Source: Opitutales bacterium
Lineage (GTDB): Bacteria > Verrucomicrobiota > Verrucomicrobiia > Opitutales > Coraliomargaritaceae
NCBI GenBank assembly: GCA_018607135.1
Contig: JABBCA010000082.1
Span: 150,075-214,074, forward strand
DNA: 64,000 nt
Direction of reading: 5' to 3'
Shown piece by piece: positions 5,677-63,346 of this stretch. The notes beneath the pieces are model-generated. The model was not told the origin of the DNA, ran no database searches, and saw only the letters and a list, made by a program, of their open reading frames with translations. How positions within the stretch are numbered: position 1 is the stretch's first letter; each line of letters starts with the position of its first letter. The translations under genes were made by a program, and so were the position numbers.

Positions 5677-7287
5677 ATGAAGATCCCACTTATAGTAATT
5701 AGTATTCTAATAATCGCCTCAGTTTCCTGGGCGAAAGTCGAGTTGCCAGCCGTCTTCTCCGACGGGGCCGTTTTACAACGTGATCAAGATCTCCCCGTGT
5801 GGGGATGGGGCAGTCCTGGAGCCAATGTATCGGTGCGCTTTGCCGACCAAACGAAGACCACCCGAGTAGATGCAGATGGCAAATGGATGGTTACCCTGTC
5901 TCCGGTCAAGGGCTCTTACGACACGCATACCATGCAGATTCAGGTGGGCCGCGACTCGCTGGAGCTCACTGATTTGCTAGTCGGTGAGGTGTGGCTCTGC
6001 ACCGGCCAGTCCAACATGCAATATACTTTCGATGCTTTGGTCGGGCGTTCCAAAGATAAAGGCTACCAGTCAATCATCGATTCTATGCAGCAATTGAAGG
6101 ATACGGTAAAAGATCCCTATTTGCGTAAGATCACGGTGCCTGCGGTTGCGTCGCTGGAGGAAGGTATGCATACTTTCGAGGGTGAGTGGATGAGCGTCGA
6201 GCCGAAAAACAATGGCAGCTTTTCCGCCACCACATACTTCTTCGCTAGGGAGCTTCGAAACTATCTCGACTGTCCCGTTGGTATGCTGACTTGCGCATGG
6301 GGTGGGCAACGCATCGATGGATTCATCCCTCCCTCCGCGTGGATGGCTAGCACCGAAAAAGCAAATTACGAAAAAGAGATTGCTACGATTAAACACCAAA
6401 TCGCAACCTATGATCCCGTAAAGGCACAGGAAACCTTGGAAAAGGAACATGCGCAATGGAAGGCCAACAATGGTCACCGCCGCAAAGAGCCTAAGCTCTA
6501 CAATCCGTCGGTGATCACACCCAATATTCGCGGTGTCATCTACAACGGAATGATTCATCCACTGGCGCCTTACGCACTCCGCGGCATGCTCTGGTATCAG
6601 GGTGAATCACATTCTCGCAGCAACCCGCAATCCTATGGCTACCTGATGGAACTGCTCATCACTGGCTTGAGAGCCGAATGGGGACAAGGCGACTTTCCGG
6701 TCTACTACTGCCAACTGGCGGGATTCATGAAACCAGAGTCTGAGCCGCTCCAAGAAACGCCGAGCATGGTCGTCATTTGCAACCAGCAGCGCCTCTCGAT
6801 GAAAATTCCCAATACTGGCATGGCGGTGCTCAATGATGTGGGTCAAGCGACAGATTATCATCCAAAAAACAAGCTGGATGTCGGCCTTCGCCTCTCGAAA
6901 TGGGCCTTGAACAAAACTTATGGCTTTGAAGATATCGTGCCCAGTGGCCCACTGTATCAATCATACCACAACAACGGTAGCTCAATCACCATAACCTTTG
7001 AGTATGCGGGCAGCGGTCTGATGACGGGCAACAAACACCTTCTCAAGCCAGTGGTGCCTTCCAACGATCCTATAAGCGGCTTTGAGATCTGCGGCGATGA
7101 CCACCAGTGGAAAGCAGCGACCGCACACATAGTAGGGCACAATCAAGTAGAAGTCGCTCACCCATCCATCCAGAAACCGGTCGCGGTGCGTTATGCATGG
7201 CAAGGCAACCCCACCAATGCGAACCTCTACAATAAAGAAGGACTCCCCACGAGCTTGTTCATCACGGATGAGTCCATGGGTAAATAA
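5677..7287 (+). CDS. Sialate-O-acetylesterase-type (SASA/SGNH) carbohydrate esterase, copy 1
   Basis: A 536-residue exported esterase. The signal peptide covers about residues 1-19 (MKIPLIVISILIIASVSWA), followed by a beta-domain with the family opening [12 protein letters not shown]. The SGNH catalytic serine lies in CTGQSNMQ (Ser112). The conserved LWYQGES block is at about 306-312, and a DYHPKNK segment further on supplies the probable His of the triad. SASA enzymes remove O-acetyl groups from sugars. Because the neighbours are sulfatases and a fucosidase, the substrate is probably an acetylated algal polysaccharide rather than sialic acid. It is a close paralogue of the gene at 8805, with the sulfatase between them. 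Confidence 0.88.
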   Translation: MKIPLIVISILIIASVSWAKVELPAVFSDGAVLQRDQDLPVWGWGSPGANVSVRFADQTKTTRVDADGKWMVTLSPVKGSYDTHTMQIQVGRDSLELTDLLVGEVWLCTGQSNMQYTFDALVGRSKDKGYQSIIDSMQQLKDTVKDPYLRKITVPAVASLEEGMHTFEGEWMSVEPKNNGSFSATTYFFARELRNYLDCPVGMLTCAWGGQRIDGFIPPSAWMASTEKANYEKEIATIKHQIATYDPVKAQETLEKEHAQWKANNGHRRKEPKLYNPSVITPNIRGVIYNGMIHPLAPYALRGMLWYQGESHSRSNPQSYGYLMELLITGLRAEWGQGDFPVYYCQLAGFMKPESEPLQETPSMVVICNQQRLSMKIPNTGMAVLNDVGQATDYHPKNKLDVGLRLSKWALNKTYGFEDIVPSGPLYQSYHNNGSSITITFEYAGSGLMTGNKHLLKPVVPSNDPISGFEICGDDHQWKAATAHIVGHNQVEVAHPSIQKPVAVRYAWQGNPTNANLYNKEGLPTSLFITDESMGK

Positions 7288-53237: not shown

Positions 53238-54449
53238 TTATTCTTTGGCCAGTTCGCCAATCATAGGGTTTTTCATAATCGCGTCGAATACAGTCGCGAT
53301 TCCTCCACGTAATGAATCATCACCTGAAGTGCCGACAATCAGATCTAAAGGATCGGTCATATAGGGCAAGGTATCTGACAGGATCGCCGCACGAATCGAC
53401 GGTTCAACGTATCGCATCAGCTCAGACAAACGCCCCCCAACAATTACCGTGGATGGATTAAACGTTTGCACCAGTCGCGCAAGCCCTAGCCCAATCTGCT
53501 CGCCTACATCTGACAATACAGCCAGCACAGTAGAATCCCCAGCTTGCACTTTTTGAATTGCCGATTCGATCCAATCGACACTGGAGGCTCCATAGGCTGA
53601 AATCTCAACACCAGCACCTGCTAATTTACGAAGCACCGCCGAGGCTCCTATTTCAGTGACCCAGCAGCCCTTTTTGCCGCAGCTGCAGTTGACACCGTTA
53701 TCCACAAATGCGGTGTGTCCAACTTGCCCGGCAAAACCCAGCTTACCGCGTATTAAAACTCCATCAACAAAGACGCCCGCGGCTAGCCCAACACCCAAAC
53801 TAAGGTAAATCATATTTCGCACCCCTTGGCGCTCGCCGAAATGATGGGCCCCGATGGCACCTGCATGTGCTTCATTTTCTACATACACAGGCATGCCAAA
53901 GCGCTGTTCCCAAGTGCATTTCAATGGCACATGCTCCCATCCTGTCGTCGGCCCATACGCAAGTTGCCCATCTTCACGGTCCACCAAACCAGCCCAAGCG
54001 ACACAAAGGCCAAAACACTTTAATTGGCTTAAAGCACTTTGTTCCAACGCACGCTCCACCAAACCAGCCGCAACCGCTAAGGTTTCATTCGCAGCACAAT
54101 TAGGCGCGATCTCCACCTCTTCGCGACTGAGCACCTCTTGACCAAAATTTGTCATCAATACACTCACTCGATCAATATCGATATCCAATGCCATCAAAGA
54201 GCCACAATTTGGATTCAAATTAAGTAACAATCCAGGACGACCCGTCCGACCTGCATCATACTCGGTTTCTGTAACCATGGATGCTTCGATTAAATCAGAG
54301 ACAATATTTGAAACGGTTGCACGTGTAAGCCCTAATACAGAGGCGATGTTCGCACGTGAAAGCGGCCCATTTACGCGTAATTGGTTTAAAACACTCACCG
54401 CATTTAAACGACGAATATCAGCACGGTCATATCTCTGCTGTTCGGACAT
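53238..54449 (-). CDS. ROK-family transcriptional repressor
   Basis: A 403-residue NagC/Mlc/XylR-type regulator; the start at 54449 (MSEQQRYDRADIRRLNAVSV) is preferred over 54551. The N-terminal winged helix-turn-helix includes NGPLSRANIASVLGLTRATV (about 27-46). The ROK sugar-binding domain has GPTTGWEHVPL, ENEAHAGAIG (with Glu in place of the usual Asp of the kinase catalytic motif, so probably not a kinase) and the zinc site CSCGKKGC (Cys255, Cys257, Cys262). It is transcribed divergently from the sugar-oxidoreductase cluster and next to a palindromic operator, so it probably represses that cluster and is released by a sugar ligand. Confidence 0.9.
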   Translation of the reverse strand: MSEQQRYDRADIRRLNAVSVLNQLRVNGPLSRANIASVLGLTRATVSNIVSDLIEASMVTETEYDAGRTGRPGLLLNLNPNCGSLMALDIDIDRVSVLMTNFGQEVLSREEVEIAPNCAANETLAVAAGLVERALEQSALSQLKCFGLCVAWAGLVDREDGQLAYGPTTGWEHVPLKCTWEQRFGMPVYVENEAHAGAIGAHHFGERQGVRNMIYLSLGVGLAAGVFVDGVLIRGKLGFAGQVGHTAFVDNGVNCSCGKKGCWVTEIGASAVLRKLAGAGVEISAYGASSVDWIESAIQKVQAGDSTVLAVLSDVGEQIGLGLARLVQTFNPSTVIVGGRLSELMRYVEPSIRAAILSDTLPYMTDPLDLIVGTSGDDSLRGGIATVFDAIMKNPMIGELAKE

Positions 54450-54494
54450 CTTTTTTAACAAGACAGCTTTTTTTATATTGCGAAAGCATGAAAT

Positions 54495-54525
54495 TTGACT
54501 TGTTTGTTTATTAAGTAAACATAAT
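54495..54525 (+). promoter_or_regulatory. Candidate promoter of sugar-oxidoreductase cluster
   Basis: TTGACT (54495-54500) and CATAAT (54520-54525) could form a -35/-10 pair with a 19-bp spacer, ahead of the ATG at 54570. The operator-like inverted repeat lies in the spacer, where a bound repressor would block RNA polymerase. The spacing is slightly long, so the exact hexamers are tentative. Confidence 0.45.
54505..54521. promoter_or_regulatory. Operator-like inverted repeat for ROK repressor
   Basis: TGTTTA-TTAAG-TAAACA is a perfect 6-bp inverted repeat around five bases, in the 120-bp region between the divergent ROK regulator and the first Gfo/Idh gene. ROK repressors such as NagC and Mlc bind AT-rich inverted repeats of this general size. 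Autoregulation plus repression of the + strand cluster is the simplest reading. Confidence 0.6.
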
Positions 54526-54569
54526 TGGAACCTTTTGGTCTCAAGCCCCACTTAATGTATAAAAACACG

Positions 54570-56024
54570 ATGAAAATTGCCCCATCCACACCAAGTCGCC
54601 GCGATTTCCTAAAAACCTCCGCAGCATTCGGTTCCCTAACCCTGTTACCCTCCTACATTGCCTTAGGAAATAAGTCCTCCAACGGTCTTGCCCCAAGCGA
54701 AAAAGTCAATCTAGCGGTGATCGGCATAGGTAACCAAGGCGATCGCGACCGTAAGTCATTACTCGCATCTCAACTGTGTAACGTAGTGGCACTTTGCGAT
54801 ATCGACATGGAGGGCGCCCATACTCACGAATCGCGTTACACTCACAGGCTGACAAACACGCCGCCGGTTATGCCAGTCGGACAAGCGGTTCCGGAGCAAA
54901 GCGCACTGAAAGCAAAAGCATATACTGATTTCCGTAAGATGTTTGATGAAATGGCCGACGAAATCGATGCGGTGCTCATCGCCACGCCAGATCACTCACA
55001 CTTTGCTGCCACCATGCTAGCGATGTCCCTAGGCATACATGTTTACGTTGAGAAACCATTGGCGCATACCTTCGGACAGTGCGCTCGGATGATCGATCTT
55101 GCCACGCGCAGTGGTGTCGCCACACAAATGGGCAACCAAGGTCACTCGGGCGCAAATTACTTTCAATTCAAAGCTTGGCGCGAGGGAGGAATTATTAAGG
55201 ACGTCACTCGAATCACCGCTCACATGAATAGCCGACGTCGTTGGCATGGCTGGGGTCAAGATGTCACCGAATATCCTCAAGAGGCAGTGCCAAGCTACAT
55301 CAATTGGGAGTTGTGGCACGATGTGGTCGCAGTGAATCGCCCTTACAGCCCCAAAATGCATCCACAAGAGTGGCGCAGTTGGTTTGAATTTGGCAGTGGT
55401 GCCTTTGGAGATTGGGGACCGCACATTCTTGATACCTGTCATGAATTCTTGGAGCTGGGTCTACCTGAAAAAATTACCGCTGTAGAACGCGACGGTGTCA
55501 ATCCGCTCGTCTTCCCTCAGGCATCGACGATTCGTTTCGACTTTCCAGAGCGCGCAGCAGACCTACCCGCATGCGCTGTGACTTGGTATGACGGCATCAA
55601 CAATCATCCACAGATCGAAGGTGAATATACTGAAAGCGGAGCACCTGAAGCAGTAAAAAATCCGGGTAAAGTCATCTATTCGAACGAGCTCGTTTTCCAA
55701 GGAGGCTCGCACGCAAGCCCACTTAAAATTATTCCAAAGGAAAAGTATATGGAAATGCGAAAATCACTGCCACGCTTCCCCCAGAAGAACTCCAATCACT
55801 ACGCAAATTTCTTATTGGCCTGCAAGGGCGAAGAAGAGACTCGCTCCCCCTTTAAAATCGGCGGTGAACTCACCCAAGTCTTCAATCTAGGAGTGCTCGC
55901 ACAGCACTTAGGTGGCGAACTAAAATTCGACCGATCAACGAAACAGATCACCAATAATGCCATCGCTCAAGCGCTCCTCGACCCAGCTCCACGAGAGGGC
56001 TGGGAAGAATTCTATAAACTTTAA
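54570..56024 (+). CDS. Tat-exported Gfo/Idh/MocA-family oxidoreductase
   Basis: A 484-residue protein; the ATG at 54570 is preferred (54555 is possible). Its Tat signal is SRRDFLK (9-15) followed by a hydrophobic stretch to about 33. The Rossmann motif is VIGIGNQG (about 50-57) and the catalytic-type lysine is Lys162 in VEKPLAHT. The C-terminal domain has GAFGDWGPHILDTCHEFLEL, with the expected His. Compared with the enzyme at 4285 it has an insertion around residues 95-115 (TNTPPVMPVGQAVPEQS). It is the first gene of the ROK-controlled cluster. The likely job is oxidation of a glycoside, perhaps at C3, in the periplasm, feeding the DUF1080 protein 27 bp downstream. Confidence 0.87.
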   Translation: MKIAPSTPSRRDFLKTSAAFGSLTLLPSYIALGNKSSNGLAPSEKVNLAVIGIGNQGDRDRKSLLASQLCNVVALCDIDMEGAHTHESRYTHRLTNTPPVMPVGQAVPEQSALKAKAYTDFRKMFDEMADEIDAVLIATPDHSHFAATMLAMSLGIHVYVEKPLAHTFGQCARMIDLATRSGVATQMGNQGHSGANYFQFKAWREGGIIKDVTRITAHMNSRRRWHGWGQDVTEYPQEAVPSYINWELWHDVVAVNRPYSPKMHPQEWRSWFEFGSGAFGDWGPHILDTCHEFLELGLPEKITAVERDGVNPLVFPQASTIRFDFPERAADLPACAVTWYDGINNHPQIEGEYTESGAPEAVKNPGKVIYSNELVFQGGSHASPLKIIPKEKYMEMRKSLPRFPQKNSNHYANFLLACKGEEETRSPFKIGGELTQVFNLGVLAQHLGGELKFDRSTKQITNNAIAQALLDPAPREGWEEFYKL

Positions 56025-56051: not shown

Positions 56052-57389
56052 ATGAAATACCTCGCCACTTTGCTCATCGCATGCGTATCGCTCTCCTCGT
56101 TCGCGTGCGCCAATAAGATCTCTTCAGATCAACAAGGTTTTGTTGATAGGTATAAAAAGCAAAAAGACATAATTCCTCCTGAAGAGGCCCTCATCAATAC
56201 GGATCGCGAACCCGAGCTGAGCCAAGGCTTCATTCACCTCTACAATGGTGAAAACCTTGACGGCTGGGTCTCACTCGGCGGCGTATGCACTTTCGAGCCA
56301 AATGGTGAAATGATCACGGGAACCTGCGTGAAAGATTCTCCAAGCACGTATTTATCTACAACCAAAACGGATTACAAAGACTTCATTTTCACAATTGAAA
56401 TGAAGTGGGAGGTTGATGGAAACAGCGGCGTGATGTTTCGCTCAGCGAGTAAACCTGGTGAACAATTTGAAAAGGTTTACGGCCCTCAAGTTGAAATGGA
56501 GGGCTTTGAGTCTCACGATGGGAAGCGCAAATGGTCGGGCGGTATCTACGGTCAAGGATATGCCGCTTGGATCTACCCTCTCTGGCTCGATGCACATGCA
56601 GAAGCACGTGCAGCCCTGAAAGCTGGAGAATGGAATCGCCTCACCATCCACGCGGAAGGTGAAACGGTGAAAACTTGGGTAAATGGTGTGCCCGCAAGCC
56701 ATTGGGTAGATGATGGATTCCTTGAGGGGTTCTTCTCCCTACAAGTGCACTCTGGTCGCAAAGGCAAAATCCACTTCCGCAACATCATGGTCAAAGAACT
56801 CAACGTAGAGCCTGAATATGAAGACCTGTTCGGGACTGGAGATTTTTCCAAATGGACCAACCCTAAGGGGGGGCCAGTCGGTAATGGATGGGTCATCGAA
56901 AACGACGTCATCTACCGTGGCGGTCTCAAACCAGGCAGTATCAACACAATCGAAAACTACAAGGATTTCGAATTGAGGTTCGACTGGAAGATTTCTGAGG
57001 CGGGCAATAGCGGTGTCAAATACCGCGCACGCGGCGGTTTGGGTCTTGAGTATCAGTTGCTCGACGATGAAAAGAATGCAGACAGTGAGCAACCTAACCA
57101 CCGAGCTGGATCACTTTACGACTTGGTCGCTGCGGCTAATAATAAGCCGCTCAATCCAGCGGGCGAATGGAACCGTGCTCGCATCATAGCCAACGGCAAC
57201 CACATTGAACATTGGCTCAACGGCGAAAAGGTAGTTGAAATCGAATACGGAACAGAGGACTGGACCGAACGCTTCGAATTAAGCAAATACAGCAAACACG
57301 AAGGCTTTGGCGAGTGGACAGGCACCATTCACCTACAAGATCACCAGAGCCCAGTCTGGTATAAGAATGTGAAAATTCGCAAACTGTAA
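56052..57389 (+). CDS. Double DUF1080 (3-keto-disaccharide hydrolase-type) protein
   Basis: A 445-residue exported protein with a signal peptide (about 1-20, possibly a lipoprotein at Cys19 though the lipobox is poor). It carries two DUF1080 jelly-roll domains of concanavalin-like fold. The first (about 54-250) has FIHLYNGENLDGWVSLGG, FIFTIEMKWEVDGNSGVMFR and GEWNRLTIHAEG. The second (about 255-445) has DLFGTGDFSKWTNPKGG, FELRFDWKISEAGNSGVKYR and GEWNRARIIANG. The family name 3-keto-disaccharide hydrolase reflects members that cleave glycosides already oxidised at C3. Next to Tat-exported Gfo/Idh oxidases it would be the cleavage step. Catalytic residues are not certain from sequence alone. 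Confidence 0.85.
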   Translation: MKYLATLLIACVSLSSFACANKISSDQQGFVDRYKKQKDIIPPEEALINTDREPELSQGFIHLYNGENLDGWVSLGGVCTFEPNGEMITGTCVKDSPSTYLSTTKTDYKDFIFTIEMKWEVDGNSGVMFRSASKPGEQFEKVYGPQVEMEGFESHDGKRKWSGGIYGQGYAAWIYPLWLDAHAEARAALKAGEWNRLTIHAEGETVKTWVNGVPASHWVDDGFLEGFFSLQVHSGRKGKIHFRNIMVKELNVEPEYEDLFGTGDFSKWTNPKGGPVGNGWVIENDVIYRGGLKPGSINTIENYKDFELRFDWKISEAGNSGVKYRARGGLGLEYQLLDDEKNADSEQPNHRAGSLYDLVAAANNKPLNPAGEWNRARIIANGNHIEHWLNGEKVVEIEYGTEDWTERFELSKYSKHEGFGEWTGTIHLQDHQSPVWYKNVKIRKL

Positions 57390-57411: not shown

Positions 57412-59034
57412 ATGAGTAACCATATCGAAGAAATTCAATCTATCCAACAACGCAGCTTTATTGGGCGCTTGGGTGGCTACGCAAAACTTACTGGTCCCGG
57501 CTGGGTGCAGGCTGCGGTCACCCTTGGAGGTGGCTCTCTGGTCGGCGCTCTTTACCTCGGTGTGATTGGCGGTTATCAATTCATGTGGCTACAGCCGCTC
57601 GCAATGTTTTGCGGAGTCATCATGCTTGCAGCCATCTCTTACGTCACGCTCTCATCCGATGAGCGACCTTTTGTCTCGGTAAAAAAGAACATCTCACCTA
57701 CTCTGGCTTGGGGCTGGTTAATCGCAACCGTAGTCGCCAATGTCGTGTTTTGCTCCGCTCAATTTGCGCTAGGGACTGATGCGGCTCAAAACAACTTGGG
57801 AGTCTTGCCTGAAACTAAGCAACCCTATGTAATCACAGCCATATTCGCGAGCGGCAGCCTCATCTTGCTTTGGCTCTCTCGCCAAGGTGGCACCGCAGCA
57901 AAGATTATCGATAACGTTCTCAAAGCACTTGTTGCAGTTGTCGTCTTGGCCTTCATGGGAGTCGTCGTCGTTCTTGGCTTTAAAGGCGCTATTGAATGGG
58001 GTGCGCTGTTCAAGGGACTCATTCCTGACTTTGGCGCACTCTTCAGACCTACAAGCACCTACTCAGATGCCATCGCAGCAACTGGCAGCAGCTCAGAATT
58101 CTGGACGAAATACATCGCTGAGAATCAGCGTAATGTGATCATTGGAGCCTTTGGGTCTGCGGTAGGTATTAACATGACTTTCCTTCTACCTTACAGCCTC
58201 AAAGCTAAGGGTTGGGGCAAGGGACACCGCCAGCTGTCTAGATTTGATCTAGCGCTCGGCCTATTCATTCCCTTCATCTTAGCGACGTCCTTTCTGGTGA
58301 TCGCAACTTCATCACAGTTTCACGCACGTGCAGATGGCGTCTACTCCGAAGCTGCTTACGTGAACGTAATTGATACAAGACTTAGTGCGACCAATTCAGA
58401 GTTCAATACTCTCACTGAAGAGAGCAAGCAAGTGCTTCGTGGAGCACTCCCACAGGCAGAAAAGAACATGGGTGTCATGCTTGCCAAGCGGAATGCCAAG
58501 GACCTAGCCAGCTCGCTCGAACCCTTTCTGGGCAAGAACGCTCAACTCATCTTTGGTATCGGTGTGCTGGCAATGGCTGTCAGCACGATGATTGTGCACA
58601 TGATGATGAATGGCTATGCGATCTCCGAAGCCTTTGGAAAACCTGGAAAGACAGGTATTTTCATGATTGGCGCCTCAATGCCCGCACTCACAGGTCTGCT
58701 CTCTCCAATTTTATGGAGTGGCCAAACCAAAACCGCCCTAGTCGTCCCGGCGGCGGTCATTGCCACCACCCTACTACCCATTGCGTATGTAATATTCATA
58801 CTACTAATGAACTCAAAAAAAGCGCTCGACTCGGAGCTGCCAAAGAACCGCATACTCATCAACATATTCATGCTTCTAGCAGCTGGAGTGGCATCTTTTG
58901 CATCGATTTGGAATCTTGTCGGCAAAGCTTCTGCAGGCGGTTCCACGGGCACTCAGGGCGTGATTGGACTCATCGTCCTACCACTCTTATTACTCATCGG
59001 CATTATCGGCTTCGTTAAACGCAACCGTGCCTAA
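57412..59034 (+). CDS. Nramp-fold (APC superfamily) transporter lacking usual metal ligands
   Basis: A 540-residue membrane protein with about 11 hydrophobic helices. Its first helix opens KLTGPGWVQAAVTLGGGSL, aligning with Nramp helix 1 at GPG. The Nramp metal-binding DPGN then reads Gly39-Gly-Gly-Ser42. Helix 6, MPH in true Nramp, reads SAVGINMTFLLPYS. These differences (eye alignment) argue against a standard Mn/Fe carrier. It lies in a sugar-oxidation cluster (22 bp after DUF1080, 22 bp before a cytosolic Gfo/Idh), so it may import a sugar, keto-sugar or sugar acid. Annotation pipelines would probably label it a divalent metal transporter. Membrane-transporter status is secure; the substrate is open. 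Confidence 0.75.
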   Translation: MSNHIEEIQSIQQRSFIGRLGGYAKLTGPGWVQAAVTLGGGSLVGALYLGVIGGYQFMWLQPLAMFCGVIMLAAISYVTLSSDERPFVSVKKNISPTLAWGWLIATVVANVVFCSAQFALGTDAAQNNLGVLPETKQPYVITAIFASGSLILLWLSRQGGTAAKIIDNVLKALVAVVVLAFMGVVVVLGFKGAIEWGALFKGLIPDFGALFRPTSTYSDAIAATGSSSEFWTKYIAENQRNVIIGAFGSAVGINMTFLLPYSLKAKGWGKGHRQLSRFDLALGLFIPFILATSFLVIATSSQFHARADGVYSEAAYVNVIDTRLSATNSEFNTLTEESKQVLRGALPQAEKNMGVMLAKRNAKDLASSLEPFLGKNAQLIFGIGVLAMAVSTMIVHMMMNGYAISEAFGKPGKTGIFMIGASMPALTGLLSPILWSGQTKTALVVPAAVIATTLLPIAYVIFILLMNSKKALDSELPKNRILINIFMLLAAGVASFASIWNLVGKASAGGSTGTQGVIGLIVLPLLLLIGIIGFVKRNRA

Positions 59035-59056: not shown

Positions 59057-60100
59057 ATGAAATTTGGAATTATTGGAGCCGGCATGATCGGCGAGTTTCA
59101 CGCTAAAGCAATTCGTGCAATGTCAAACGGAACGCTTGGAGGCATTGCGGACCGAGCACCAGAACGAGCCCAGGCTTTTGCCGAAAAGTTTTCGACGACA
59201 GCCTACGCAACAGTCACTGAAATGCTTGCAGACTCAACGATCGAAGTGGTCACGATCGGCACACCTTCCGGTGCGCACTTCGATCCAGCCATGGAAGCCA
59301 TCGAAGCGGGTAAACACGTCATCATTGAAAAGCCGCTTGAAGTCACGACTAAGCGCATTGATTCAATGGTCGATGCAGCCAAGGCTCAAGGCGTCACCCT
59401 TGCAGCCGTCCTCAATCGTAGATTCCACCCGGGTATGGATGCCTTCAAAAAAGCAGCCGACGACGGCCGCTTTGGCAAACTCACCTCCGCTTCAGCTTAT
59501 GTAAAGTGGTATCGCGATCAAGCCTACTACGACTCCGCAGGCTGGCGTGGCACATGGGCCCTTGATGGCGGCGGCGCCTTAATGAATCAATCCATTCACA
59601 CCATCGACGCCCTCCTCTATCTGGCGGGTCCAGTCCAATCCGTCCAAGCAAATACGGCCTGCCTCGCGCATACTGACATCGAAGTTGAAGACATCGCAGT
59701 TGCGATTGTTGAATTTAAAAGTGGCGCTCGTGGAATCATAGAAGGCAGCACCTGCACCTGGTCAAAAGACGGGCATCCAGCTCGCGTGCAGCTTGCAGGC
59801 ACTGAAGGCTCGGTGTTCCTCGCAGATGAAGCATTCGAAATATGGGACTTCATGAACGAGACTGCAGACGATGACTCGATTCGAGCGCACTTCATGAAAG
59901 GTGCTGAATCTGGGCTCGGTGCAAACGACCCAACAGCGATCAATTTCTACCAGCACCAACGCAACTTTGAAGAAATCGTCACCGCGATTCAGGAAGGCCG
60001 CGAGCCAAGCACTTGTGCCAGCGAAGCGCGTAAGAGCGTCGAACTCATTCAAGCCATCTACAAATCTGCTCAAAACAACGGCGAGAAAGTAGAACTTTGA
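59057..60100 (+). CDS. Cytosolic Gfo/Idh/MocA-family oxidoreductase
   Basis: A 347-residue protein without signal peptide, so cytoplasmic, unlike the other three Gfo/Idh enzymes of the window. The Rossmann motif is GIIGAGMIG (4-12), the catalytic-type lysine is Lys92 in IIEKPLEVT, and the His-containing helix is GGGALMNQSIHTIDALLYL. The length and motif set are of the inositol/glucose-type dehydrogenases. It probably reduces or re-oxidises the keto-sugar that enters through the adjacent transporter. A 200-bp gap separates it from the following isomerase. Confidence 0.88.
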   Translation: MKFGIIGAGMIGEFHAKAIRAMSNGTLGGIADRAPERAQAFAEKFSTTAYATVTEMLADSTIEVVTIGTPSGAHFDPAMEAIEAGKHVIIEKPLEVTTKRIDSMVDAAKAQGVTLAAVLNRRFHPGMDAFKKAADDGRFGKLTSASAYVKWYRDQAYYDSAGWRGTWALDGGGALMNQSIHTIDALLYLAGPVQSVQANTACLAHTDIEVEDIAVAIVEFKSGARGIIEGSTCTWSKDGHPARVQLAGTEGSVFLADEAFEIWDFMNETADDDSIRAHFMKGAESGLGANDPTAINFYQHQRNFEEIVTAIQEGREPSTCASEARKSVELIQAIYKSAQNNGEKVEL

Positions 60101-60300: not shown

Positions 60301-61173
60301 ATGATTCTAACAGGATTTACAGACGAAGCTGGACAACCACTTGAAACACAGATCAAAGCAACTCAAGCTTTGGGCTGGAAGCACCTCTCTGCGCGGAGTA
60401 TAGATGGAACCAACATTCATGACCTCTCAGAAGAAGCTTTTGAGCAGACAGTGGAGCAACTCGAAGCTGCCGACATTCAAGTCATAGAATTTGGCTCACT
60501 CATTGGCAGCTGGTCGAAAACCATCGAATCCGACTTTGAGCTTACACTTGCTGAAGTGGATCGTGCCATCCCTCGCATGCAGCGGCTTGGCACCAAAATG
60601 ATTCGCATCATGTCCTATGCACAAAAACCATGGGGTGAGAATCAACACGAAACCGAACGTTTCAGGCGACTGCGCAAAATCGTGCAGCGCTTTGCCGATT
60701 CTGGTATCCAGGCATTGCACGAAAACTGTATGAACTGGGGCGGCTTCTCTGCTCAACACACCCTAAGACTCATCGAAGAGGTGCCAGGCCTAAAACTCAT
60801 CTTTGACACGGGGAATCCAGTCTTCCAACGCGACCGCTCCAAACCAAAGCCTCAGCCCTGGCAAGATCCCATCGAATTTTACGAAACCATTAAGAAACAC
60901 ATCGCTCACGTGCATGTGAAAGATTGTTTAAACCCTCCCAATGGAAGTGACGAACCAGAGCGCTATACGCTTGCAGGCGAAGGCCAAGCGCAAGTGCCCG
61001 CGCTTCTTTCAGCACTGAAGCGAGACGGTTATCAAGGAGCAGTTGCCATTGAGCCCCATATCGCCACGGTTTTTCACGCTAAGGAAGGTGAAGCCATCGA
61101 TGCACAAGCATGCTATGACAGTTACGTAAATTATGGAAAGCACTTTGAGAAGTTGGTCTCCCAAGCCATTTAA
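60301..61173 (+). CDS. Sugar phosphate isomerase/epimerase family TIM-barrel protein
   Basis: A 290-residue cytoplasmic xylose-isomerase-like TIM barrel. Candidate metal and catalytic residues follow the family spacing: Glu141 (ALHENCMNWG), Asp169 (LIFDTGNP), His205 (HVHVKDC) and Glu251 (VAIEPHI). Starting ATG 60301 gives a clean first strand (MILTGFTDEAG). Members isomerise or epimerise keto-sugars. It resembles the gene at 3403 in fold and in genomic pairing with Gfo/Idh enzymes but the two sequences are clearly diverged. It probably completes sugar processing after the transporter. An AT-rich stretch follows. Confidence 0.78.
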   Translation: MILTGFTDEAGQPLETQIKATQALGWKHLSARSIDGTNIHDLSEEAFEQTVEQLEAADIQVIEFGSLIGSWSKTIESDFELTLAEVDRAIPRMQRLGTKMIRIMSYAQKPWGENQHETERFRRLRKIVQRFADSGIQALHENCMNWGGFSAQHTLRLIEEVPGLKLIFDTGNPVFQRDRSKPKPQPWQDPIEFYETIKKHIAHVHVKDCLNPPNGSDEPERYTLAGEGQAQVPALLSALKRDGYQGAVAIEPHIATVFHAKEGEAIDAQACYDSYVNYGKHFEKLVSQAI

Positions 61174-61422: not shown

Positions 61423-61944
61423 ATGTCCTCAAAAGAAAACAATTGCTCCAACGACCTTGGCTTAAGCCTTGGCATGATTACGCTTCGCGTTTGGCTCGGT
61501 ATCCGCGCCATCCAAACAGGTGTTGAAAAATTCGCCGGCACAAAATCGATGGACACTGCTGTCAAGATTGATGGCGCCCCCAATGCCTACGGTCTGACAG
61601 AAACGACAACTGGCAAGGTTTATGCATTGAGCAACTACAATGGTGTTCCTGCTCCATTAATGGACAAGTTCAGCAATGAACCGCTCATTCCTAGCTGGGG
61701 ACTCAGTCTCTATGATACGATCCTCGGACCAGTGCTCATAATCCTAGGGCTGACTGTGCTTCTAGGTATCGCGACTCGTTTTTCACTTTTCTTTATGGGT
61801 CTAGTCTACACCAGCCTGACCTTCGGTTTGATTCTTATTAAACAAGACGCAGGCGTTGCTTGGCTCGGTATCCACATGATTATGGTCGTAATGGCGCTCG
61901 CGCTTGCGAAATACAACAAGTTTGCCATCCTTAAAAAGTGGTAA
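61423..61944 (+). CDS. DoxX-like membrane protein
   Basis: A 173-residue protein with four hydrophobic helices. The pattern SLGMITLRVWLGIRAIQTGV, EKFAG at the N-terminus, then LYDTILGPVLIILGLTVLLG, IATRFSLFFMGLVYTSLTFG and WLGIHMIMVVMALALAK matches the DoxX family. Its large loop between helices 1 and 2 (about 35-90) is longer than in minimal DoxX proteins. DoxX members are involved in quinone- or thiol-linked redox reactions at the membrane. Here it could pass electrons from an exported oxidoreductase to the respiratory chain, but that is speculation. It lies 19 bp ahead of the next Tat-Gfo/Idh gene, so the two are probably co-transcribed. Confidence 0.7.
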   Translation: MSSKENNCSNDLGLSLGMITLRVWLGIRAIQTGVEKFAGTKSMDTAVKIDGAPNAYGLTETTTGKVYALSNYNGVPAPLMDKFSNEPLIPSWGLSLYDTILGPVLIILGLTVLLGIATRFSLFFMGLVYTSLTFGLILIKQDAGVAWLGIHMIMVVMALALAKYNKFAILKKW

Positions 61945-61963: not shown

Positions 61964-63346
61964 ATGAAATTTGAACTTCCAAGACTCTCCCGTAGAGAAT
62001 TCCTCTCCAAGTCAACCCTAGGTGCAGGCCTAGTTCTCGGCGCCCCTTCCATTTTAAAAGCCAAGGAGCCTGGCGCTCCTTCCGATGACATACGCGTCGG
62101 ATTCATCGGCTGTGGCAAGCAACACGAGGTGCTGTTTAACGCCATGGTAAACATACCGGGACTTCATTACGTTGCAGCTTGCGACATCATGAAGACTCGA
62201 TCCAAAGGCACTGCTGGTCGTATTTACAAGCGTTTTGGTAACAAACCGAACATGTATACCAGCGCAGAGGAAATGCTGGATAAAGAAGAACTGGATGCTG
62301 TCTTTATCTCGACGCCCGACTTCTGGCATGCGCCCCACACAGTCATGGCACTCGAAGCGGGCTGCCATGTCTACTGCGAAAAAATGATGTCTAACACCAT
62401 TGAAGGCGCGCGCAGTATGGTTGCAGCTATGGACCGCACCGGCAAACTTTGCCAAATCGGGCATCAACGTCGAAGCAATCCTCGCTACCTATTTACGCTC
62501 AATGAATTAATCCACAAGGAAAAGCTCTGCGGTCAGATCATTAATATTAACGGTCAGTGGAACCGCGCACTCAGCTCATCGCAAGATATTGTCTACGGCA
62601 AACCAGATCACTTACCCAAAGCCGACATACTTCGCGAGTTTGGCTTCAACACTGGAGCAGACAAAACACTAACTGAGGAAGAGCTTCGTCACCGATTCCT
62701 CAATTGGCGCTTTTACACTGCCCTCTCGGGTGGCCCAATCTCCGACCTTGGAGCACACCAAATTGATATATTCAATTGGTATCTGGGCGCACAACCAAAG
62801 TCTGTCATGGCATCGGGCGGCCGCAGCTACTTCAAAGGTCGTGAGCACTTTGACAACGTAATGTGTATCTTTGATTACGACACCCCAGCAGGCAGTGCGC
62901 GCGCATTCTACCAAGTATTAACCACGACAAGCTCAGGCGGCGGTTATTACGAGTCCTTTATGGGCACCGAAGGCACCATCGAAATTTCTGAGCGCGAAGC
63001 TTACACAAATATCTACAAAGAGTCTGGCGCAGACAGCGCAAAATGGGACAAAGCAGTAAGCCGTGGCCTCCTTAAGAAGGAAGCTGCTGGTCAAGCAGCT
63101 GGCGGAGCCGACGCAATTGCTTCCTACGAATCCGCTCCACCCGATAAATACGCACTGCCAGGCGGTCTTAGCAAACAGCCGCACACACCACATATTGAAA
63201 ACTTCTGCGCTGCAGTCCGCGGCGAAGCGAAACTGACTTGCGATGCACGTCATGCCCTCGAATCTGAAGCCCCTATTTACTGGGTGAATCCAGCCGCAAA
63301 CAGCAACCAAATCATCAATTTCACAGACGAGCACTTGCATGCATAA
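61964..63346 (+). CDS. Tat-exported Gfo/Idh/MocA-family oxidoreductase with EKM variant
   Basis: A 460-residue protein; the start at 61964 (MKFELPRLSRREFLSKSTLG) places the Tat motif SRREFLS at residues 9-15. An earlier ATG at 61904 would lie inside the DoxX gene. The Rossmann motif is FIGCGKQ (about 47-53). The lysine motif reads CEKM (Lys140) instead of the usual CEKP: the lysine is kept but the proline is lost. The C-terminal domain has ISDLGAHQIDIFNWYL, with the expected His. The nearest neighbours are the DoxX-like protein and a lipoprotein. It probably oxidises a sugar outside the cytoplasm and may hand electrons on through the DoxX protein. Confidence 0.87.
   Translation: MKFELPRLSRREFLSKSTLGAGLVLGAPSILKAKEPGAPSDDIRVGFIGCGKQHEVLFNAMVNIPGLHYVAACDIMKTRSKGTAGRIYKRFGNKPNMYTSAEEMLDKEELDAVFISTPDFWHAPHTVMALEAGCHVYCEKMMSNTIEGARSMVAAMDRTGKLCQIGHQRRSNPRYLFTLNELIHKEKLCGQIININGQWNRALSSSQDIVYGKPDHLPKADILREFGFNTGADKTLTEEELRHRFLNWRFYTALSGGPISDLGAHQIDIFNWYLGAQPKSVMASGGRSYFKGREHFDNVMCIFDYDTPAGSARAFYQVLTTTSSGGGYYESFMGTEGTIEISEREAYTNIYKESGADSAKWDKAVSRGLLKKEAAGQAAGGADAIASYESAPPDKYALPGGLSKQPHTPHIENFCAAVRGEAKLTCDARHALESEAPIYWVNPAANSNQIINFTDEHLHA

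Follow-up and report, generated by a model that had tools for sequence, protein, structure and literature searches.

A Nramp-fold protein without metal ligands, encoded beside sugar-oxidation genes and probably importing an organic solute

We propose that NRL, the name used here for a Nramp-related transporter encoded in the window (the whole 64,000-nucleotide stretch of DNA that was analysed), is a Nramp-fold secondary transporter that does not bind metal and imports a small polyhydroxylated organic molecule for the enzymes of its operon. We assign this reading a probability of roughly 0.6. It is supported by the loss of the metal ligands, the uniform replacement of these residues, the conserved operon, and the exchange of NRL for an MFS transporter in related genomes. 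The sequence-only reading of this DNA had already suggested an organic substrate and had called a metal-transporter label misleading; ligand loss, the operon with its Gfo and TIM-barrel partners, the MFS exchange, and the presence of other metal importers (ZnuA-type and FeoB) lend support to both suggestions. The features of the cluster are listed in Table 1.

Table 1. Features of the NRL gene cluster, in window coordinates.
Feature	Position	Strand	Remarks
Divergent ROK-family repressor	53238..54551	-	Pfam; true start probably near 54449
Perfect palindrome TGTTTA-N5-TAAACA, candidate operator	54505..54521	.	divergent ROK/operon promoter
Tat-signal Gfo/Idh/MocA dehydrogenase	54570..56024	+	start inferred; ORF listed from 54525
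3-keto-disaccharide hydrolase family protein (PF06439, two stretches)	56052..57389	+	Pfam
NRL, Nramp-related transporter	57412..59034	+	540 aa, LeuT fold
TM1 GGGS, residues 39-42, replacing metal-binding DPGN	57526..57537	+	profile and MAFFT alignments
TM6 GIN, residues 252-254, replacing MPH	58165..58173	+	MAFFT alignment
Gfo/Idh/MocA dehydrogenase, conserved partner of NRL	59057..60100	+	22 bp downstream of NRL
Xylose-isomerase-like TIM barrel (AP_endonuc_2), second conserved partner	60301..61173	+	Pfam
Small membrane protein, 173 aa, DoxX-like by eye	61423..61944	+	no Pfam match
Second Gfo/Idh/MocA dehydrogenase, Tat-like N-terminus	61964..63346	+	start inferred

Fold and metal-site residues of NRL

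In the ORF listing, the NRL gene begins with an ATG. Its product scores 83.4 bits against the Pfam Nramp family (PF01566, cut-off 29.8) and does not reach the NCBIfam equivalog Nramp_1 (20.7 bits, cut-off 50). The AF2 model of NRL has a mean pLDDT of 86, and Nramp structures are its top matches in Foldseek and VIA-align, with a Z of 39.3 for DraNramp (6d91). A phmmer search of the PDB with the single NRL sequence gave no match, whereas a profile of 21 NRL relatives did match PDB chains; tblastn of NRL against plasmids returned weak Nramp matches only. At the level of family profiles and the predicted structure, NRL is confirmed as a genuine PF01566 protein of the Nramp fold. With canonical Nramp/MntH/DMT1 proteins (SLC11), it shares PF01566, the LeuT fold, and the helix breaks of TM1 and TM6. 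These breaks, modelled at residues 38-39 of helix 1 and 251-252 of helix 6, coincide with the location of the Nramp metal site.

NRL differs from canonical Nramps in carrying GGGS for DPGN and GIN for MPH, in lacking the TM10 Gln, and in forming a separate clade. The two motif replacements had been noticed by eye in the sequence-only reading; the helix breaks of the AF2 model sit at GGGS and GIN. In the alignment made with the 21-relative profile, LGGGS of NRL pairs with LDPGN in human NRAMP1 (9f6p) and with the NDAGG stretch in EleNRMT (7qia), so the TM1 Asp position is Gly against both. Both replacements recur in a MAFFT alignment that includes 13 canonical Nramps of the same phylum, where MDPGN pairs with LGGGS and VMPHN with VGINM. 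The TM10 Gln ligand (Dra Q378) corresponds to Ala/Ser in NRL when the profile alignment is counted back from a conserved Pro. The TM3 Asp/Glu of the proton pathway also appear to be absent, at a stretch where the alignment has gaps. The alignments show that all side-chain ligands of the putative metal site are lost. Na+ coupling was considered from the invariant S391-T392 of TM8, but canonical Nramps have Ser/Asn-Ser at these positions, which makes the pair uninformative.

Relatives of NRL are present in 24 of 288 genomes of the phylum, the window's genome included. A scan of species genomes yielded 539 stretches encoding relatives, and the best 80, which were retained, span Verrucomicrobiota, Bacteroidota, Planctomycetota, and Lentisphaerota. 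Conservation was counted over 81 aligned rows with 79-81 letters per column. Gly occupies position 39 in 79 rows, position 40 in 77, and position 41 in 79; position 42 is Ser in 68 and Thr in 10, the latter exchange retaining the hydroxyl. At TM6, position 252 is Gly in 79 rows and position 254 is Asn in 80, so that almost every row reads GGG(S/T) at 39-42 and GINM at 252-255. This near-invariance leads us to dismiss a chance or damaged-copy origin of the GGGS and GIN replacements. Among the 81 rows there is no conserved acidic residue at the site, and the fully conserved Asp, D279, is placed at the start of TM7 in the AF2 model. M255 is invariant and lies three residues past the canonical Met position; were it a ligand, TM1 would offer no Asp/Asn partner.

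Relation to other Nramp-related proteins

Our tree took in canonical Nramps and several PF01566 groups without DPGN/MPH, all from the same phylum, and set the NRL clade apart from the canonical Nramps with 100% SH-aLRT support. The other groups read GEL/GASE, SHL/APID, or GASD at TM1/TM6 in the MAFFT alignment; loss of DPGN/MPH is therefore common in the superfamily and not unique to NRL. In the loci of these groups (L143-L161), none of the genes lies near Gfo/Idh genes. Nramp-related proteins have been described as a paraphyletic, mostly uncharacterised assemblage without DPGN/MPH or the proton pathway, in which NRMT-like and G-motif groups are named (PMC12873925). Canonical Nramps are regarded as having emerged from this motif-free group, for which almost no substrates are known (PMC12873925). 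NRL, with a Nramp fold and without the canonical substrate motifs, is an Nramp-related protein and belongs to this already recognised sort.

The Mg2+ transporter EleNRMT matches the NRL fold with a Z of 31, and the Met ligand is missing in both. NRMTs, however, follow the pattern DxxG-TxxA/T and keep the TM1 Asp (PMC8806188), whereas NRL has Gly at that position and does not carry the NRMT pattern. This Asp has been termed universally conserved in SLC11, and its mutation in EleNRMT strongly compromised transport (PMC8806188). YcsG/MntG/PxpT and other "G-motif" proteins resemble NRL in being Nramp-related, non-canonical, and encoded inside an organic-catabolism operon; the YcsG model 9a52 matches NRL with a Z of 30.6. 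The YcsG/PxpT operon contains a 5-oxoprolinase, in which the NRL operon differs. Our searches of the open-licence literature found no link between an Nramp-like protein and pathways of the Gfo/Idh or 3-keto-sugar type.

Operon, conserved partners and exchange with an MFS transporter

NRL is the only large polytopic protein encoded in the operon. Its start lies 22 bp from the gene of the 3-keto-disaccharide hydrolase, the N-terminus of which looks lipoprotein-like by eye. The Tat-signal dehydrogenase upstream is related to the BT_2158 glycoside 3-dehydrogenase family; BT2158 is a periplasmic glycoside 3-dehydrogenase required for disaccharide use (PMC11300592).

The partnership with the downstream genes is conserved. 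Neighbour genes were called by a simple longest-ORF rule in the best 80 of the 539 stretches, a set made up of the nearest relatives of NRL, some of them near-duplicates. Of the 74 loci in which a gene was called at +1 of NRL, 43 have a Gfo-type gene (>150 bits) at this place. The type is absent from the 471 genes that lie at least five places away, a position control that rules out chance adjacency in Gfo/Idh-rich phyla. A TIM barrel stands at +2 in 19/64 loci. The Pfam scan found GFO_IDH_MocA at +1 in 44/63, and AP_endonuc_2 at +2 in 19/35 and at -1 in 11/47. Near canonical Nramps and other PF01566 groups, 0 of 50 loci had the Gfo/TIM-barrel partners, 30 of these loci spanning only about 4 kb. 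The basal and Planctomycete members of the NRL family are not adjacent to the dehydrogenase, so the substrate may vary inside the family; the evidence for a sugar link is confined to NRL's own subclade and does not extend to the Planctomycete branches. In Planctomycete loci (L080, L084, L090, L094, and others) the product of the +1 gene is often about 460-485 aa long, and five +1 genes of the whole set match tRNA-synt_2.

The strongest functional evidence is a swap in which one dehydrogenase is accompanied, in the same slot, by either of two unrelated transporters. Among 40 loci of the dehydrogenase, NRL is adjacent in 18, an MFS transporter in 6, neither in 16, and both in none. The MFS proteins exceed the Pfam cut-offs of Sugar_tr and MFS_1 (PF00083/PF07690), and are thus unrelated to NRL in family and fold while occupying its genomic slot. 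All MFS cases fall in one genus (g38), where nine genomes have the dehydrogenase, with NRL in the slot in three and the MFS in six; in these six genomes NRL was absent anywhere. The replacement probably reflects one or two events. The 16 loci with neither transporter imply that the dehydrogenase can manage without either. Orthologues of the dehydrogenase with no transporter recognised adjacent include L199-L202, L241, L243, L244, and L255-L257.

Candidate substrates

We infer both the transporter role of NRL and the direction of import. NRL would bring a sugar, an oxidised sugar, or a polyol, probably uncharged, into the cytoplasm, and the adjoining Gfo/Idh/MocA dehydrogenase and TIM barrel would process it. 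The substrate may be held where TM1 and TM6 unwind, by main-chain groups together with uncharged polar side chains; conserved residues of this kind include S42, N254, T256, and Q117. More speculatively, a 3-keto sugar could be generated on the outer side of the inner membrane by the Tat-exported dehydrogenase and the exported hydrolase, and NRL might then import it for reduction. Support for an organic solute comes from a precedent in the Nramp family, PxpT, which is 50% identical to YcsG and essential for growth on 5-oxoproline (PMC13274462). Extended to the entire Nramp-fold clade with GGG(S/T) in TM1 and GINM in TM6, the idea that its members are importers of sugars, perhaps of 3-keto sugars, is one we hold tentatively, at slightly less than even odds.

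Proteins of the NRL clade pass the Pfam Nramp cut-off and so risk being labelled as divalent-metal transporters. If the clade carries sugars, such labels are wrong across several phyla, and the origin of the Nramp metal site becomes a testable question. The Gfo/TIM-barrel pathways of sugar oxidation would gain their missing transporter, and the Nramp metal site would be one specialisation of an organic-solute carrier. Together with PxpT/YcsG, much of PF01566 would then carry organic solutes. The swap of NRL and MFS within a single genus lends itself to a straightforward test by genetics.

That NRL carries not a neutral sugar but an organic acid or a sugar with a negative charge (a uronate, an aldonate, or a sialate-like compound) is unlikely, although several observations point towards it. 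The nearest solved chains of the 59057 dehydrogenase are 3q2k and 3q2i, which we take to be WlbA-type sugar-nucleotide uronate dehydrogenases, followed by the glucuronide-3-dehydrogenase 8tdi. The swapping MFS proteins are nearest to aromatic acid:H+ and sialate:H+ symporters in NCBIfam, so the NRL substrate could be an acid, but these subfamily scores lie far below cut-off. The solute of the precedent PxpT, 5-oxoproline, is itself an acid (PMC13274462). The unwound TM1/TM6 segments, however, hold no conserved basic residue.

We consider it quite improbable that NRL still imports Mn or Mg through a rearranged site, to supply the operon's metal-dependent TIM barrel. The Nramp fold and Pfam family, the invariant M255, and the lack of a second Nramp in the genome (99.98% complete) would agree with such a role, but TM1 provides neither an acidic nor an amide ligand, the Asp that is important in EleNRMT being Gly (PMC8806188), and the site as a whole lacks a conserved acidic residue. 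The genome also carries two ZnuA-type binding proteins and a FeoB; a ZIP was not found in it. YcsG, likewise without a canonical site and encoded within a 5-oxoproline operon, was concluded to import Mn (PMC10448178). Mn import was also reported for MumT, a divergent protein encoded in a urea operon (PMC5050338). The field is split on the metal or organic role of such Nramp-related proteins, and this conflict with the PxpT report is the reason for retaining metal import among the alternatives. Beside the dehydrogenase, however, the substitute for NRL is an MFS and no metal importer.

That NRL is a substrate-sensing or regulatory homologue (transceptor) without real flux is highly improbable. 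Transport by NRL is predicted only, and a divergent ROK repressor belongs to the same cluster, yet NRL is the one large polytopic protein among the operon's products, an MFS substitutes for it in sister species, and the 540-residue model has no extra signalling domain. With regard to this repressor, the palindrome TGTTTA-N5-TAAACA has a single other exact match in 270 loci, at 5020-5036 of L047, again in the ROK/operon region, and a variant occurs near 7109 in the ROK/operon intergenic region of L049; our guess is that it serves as the ROK operator. The small membrane protein of the cluster is likewise retained next to NRL in L047 and L049, as well as in L033 and L060.
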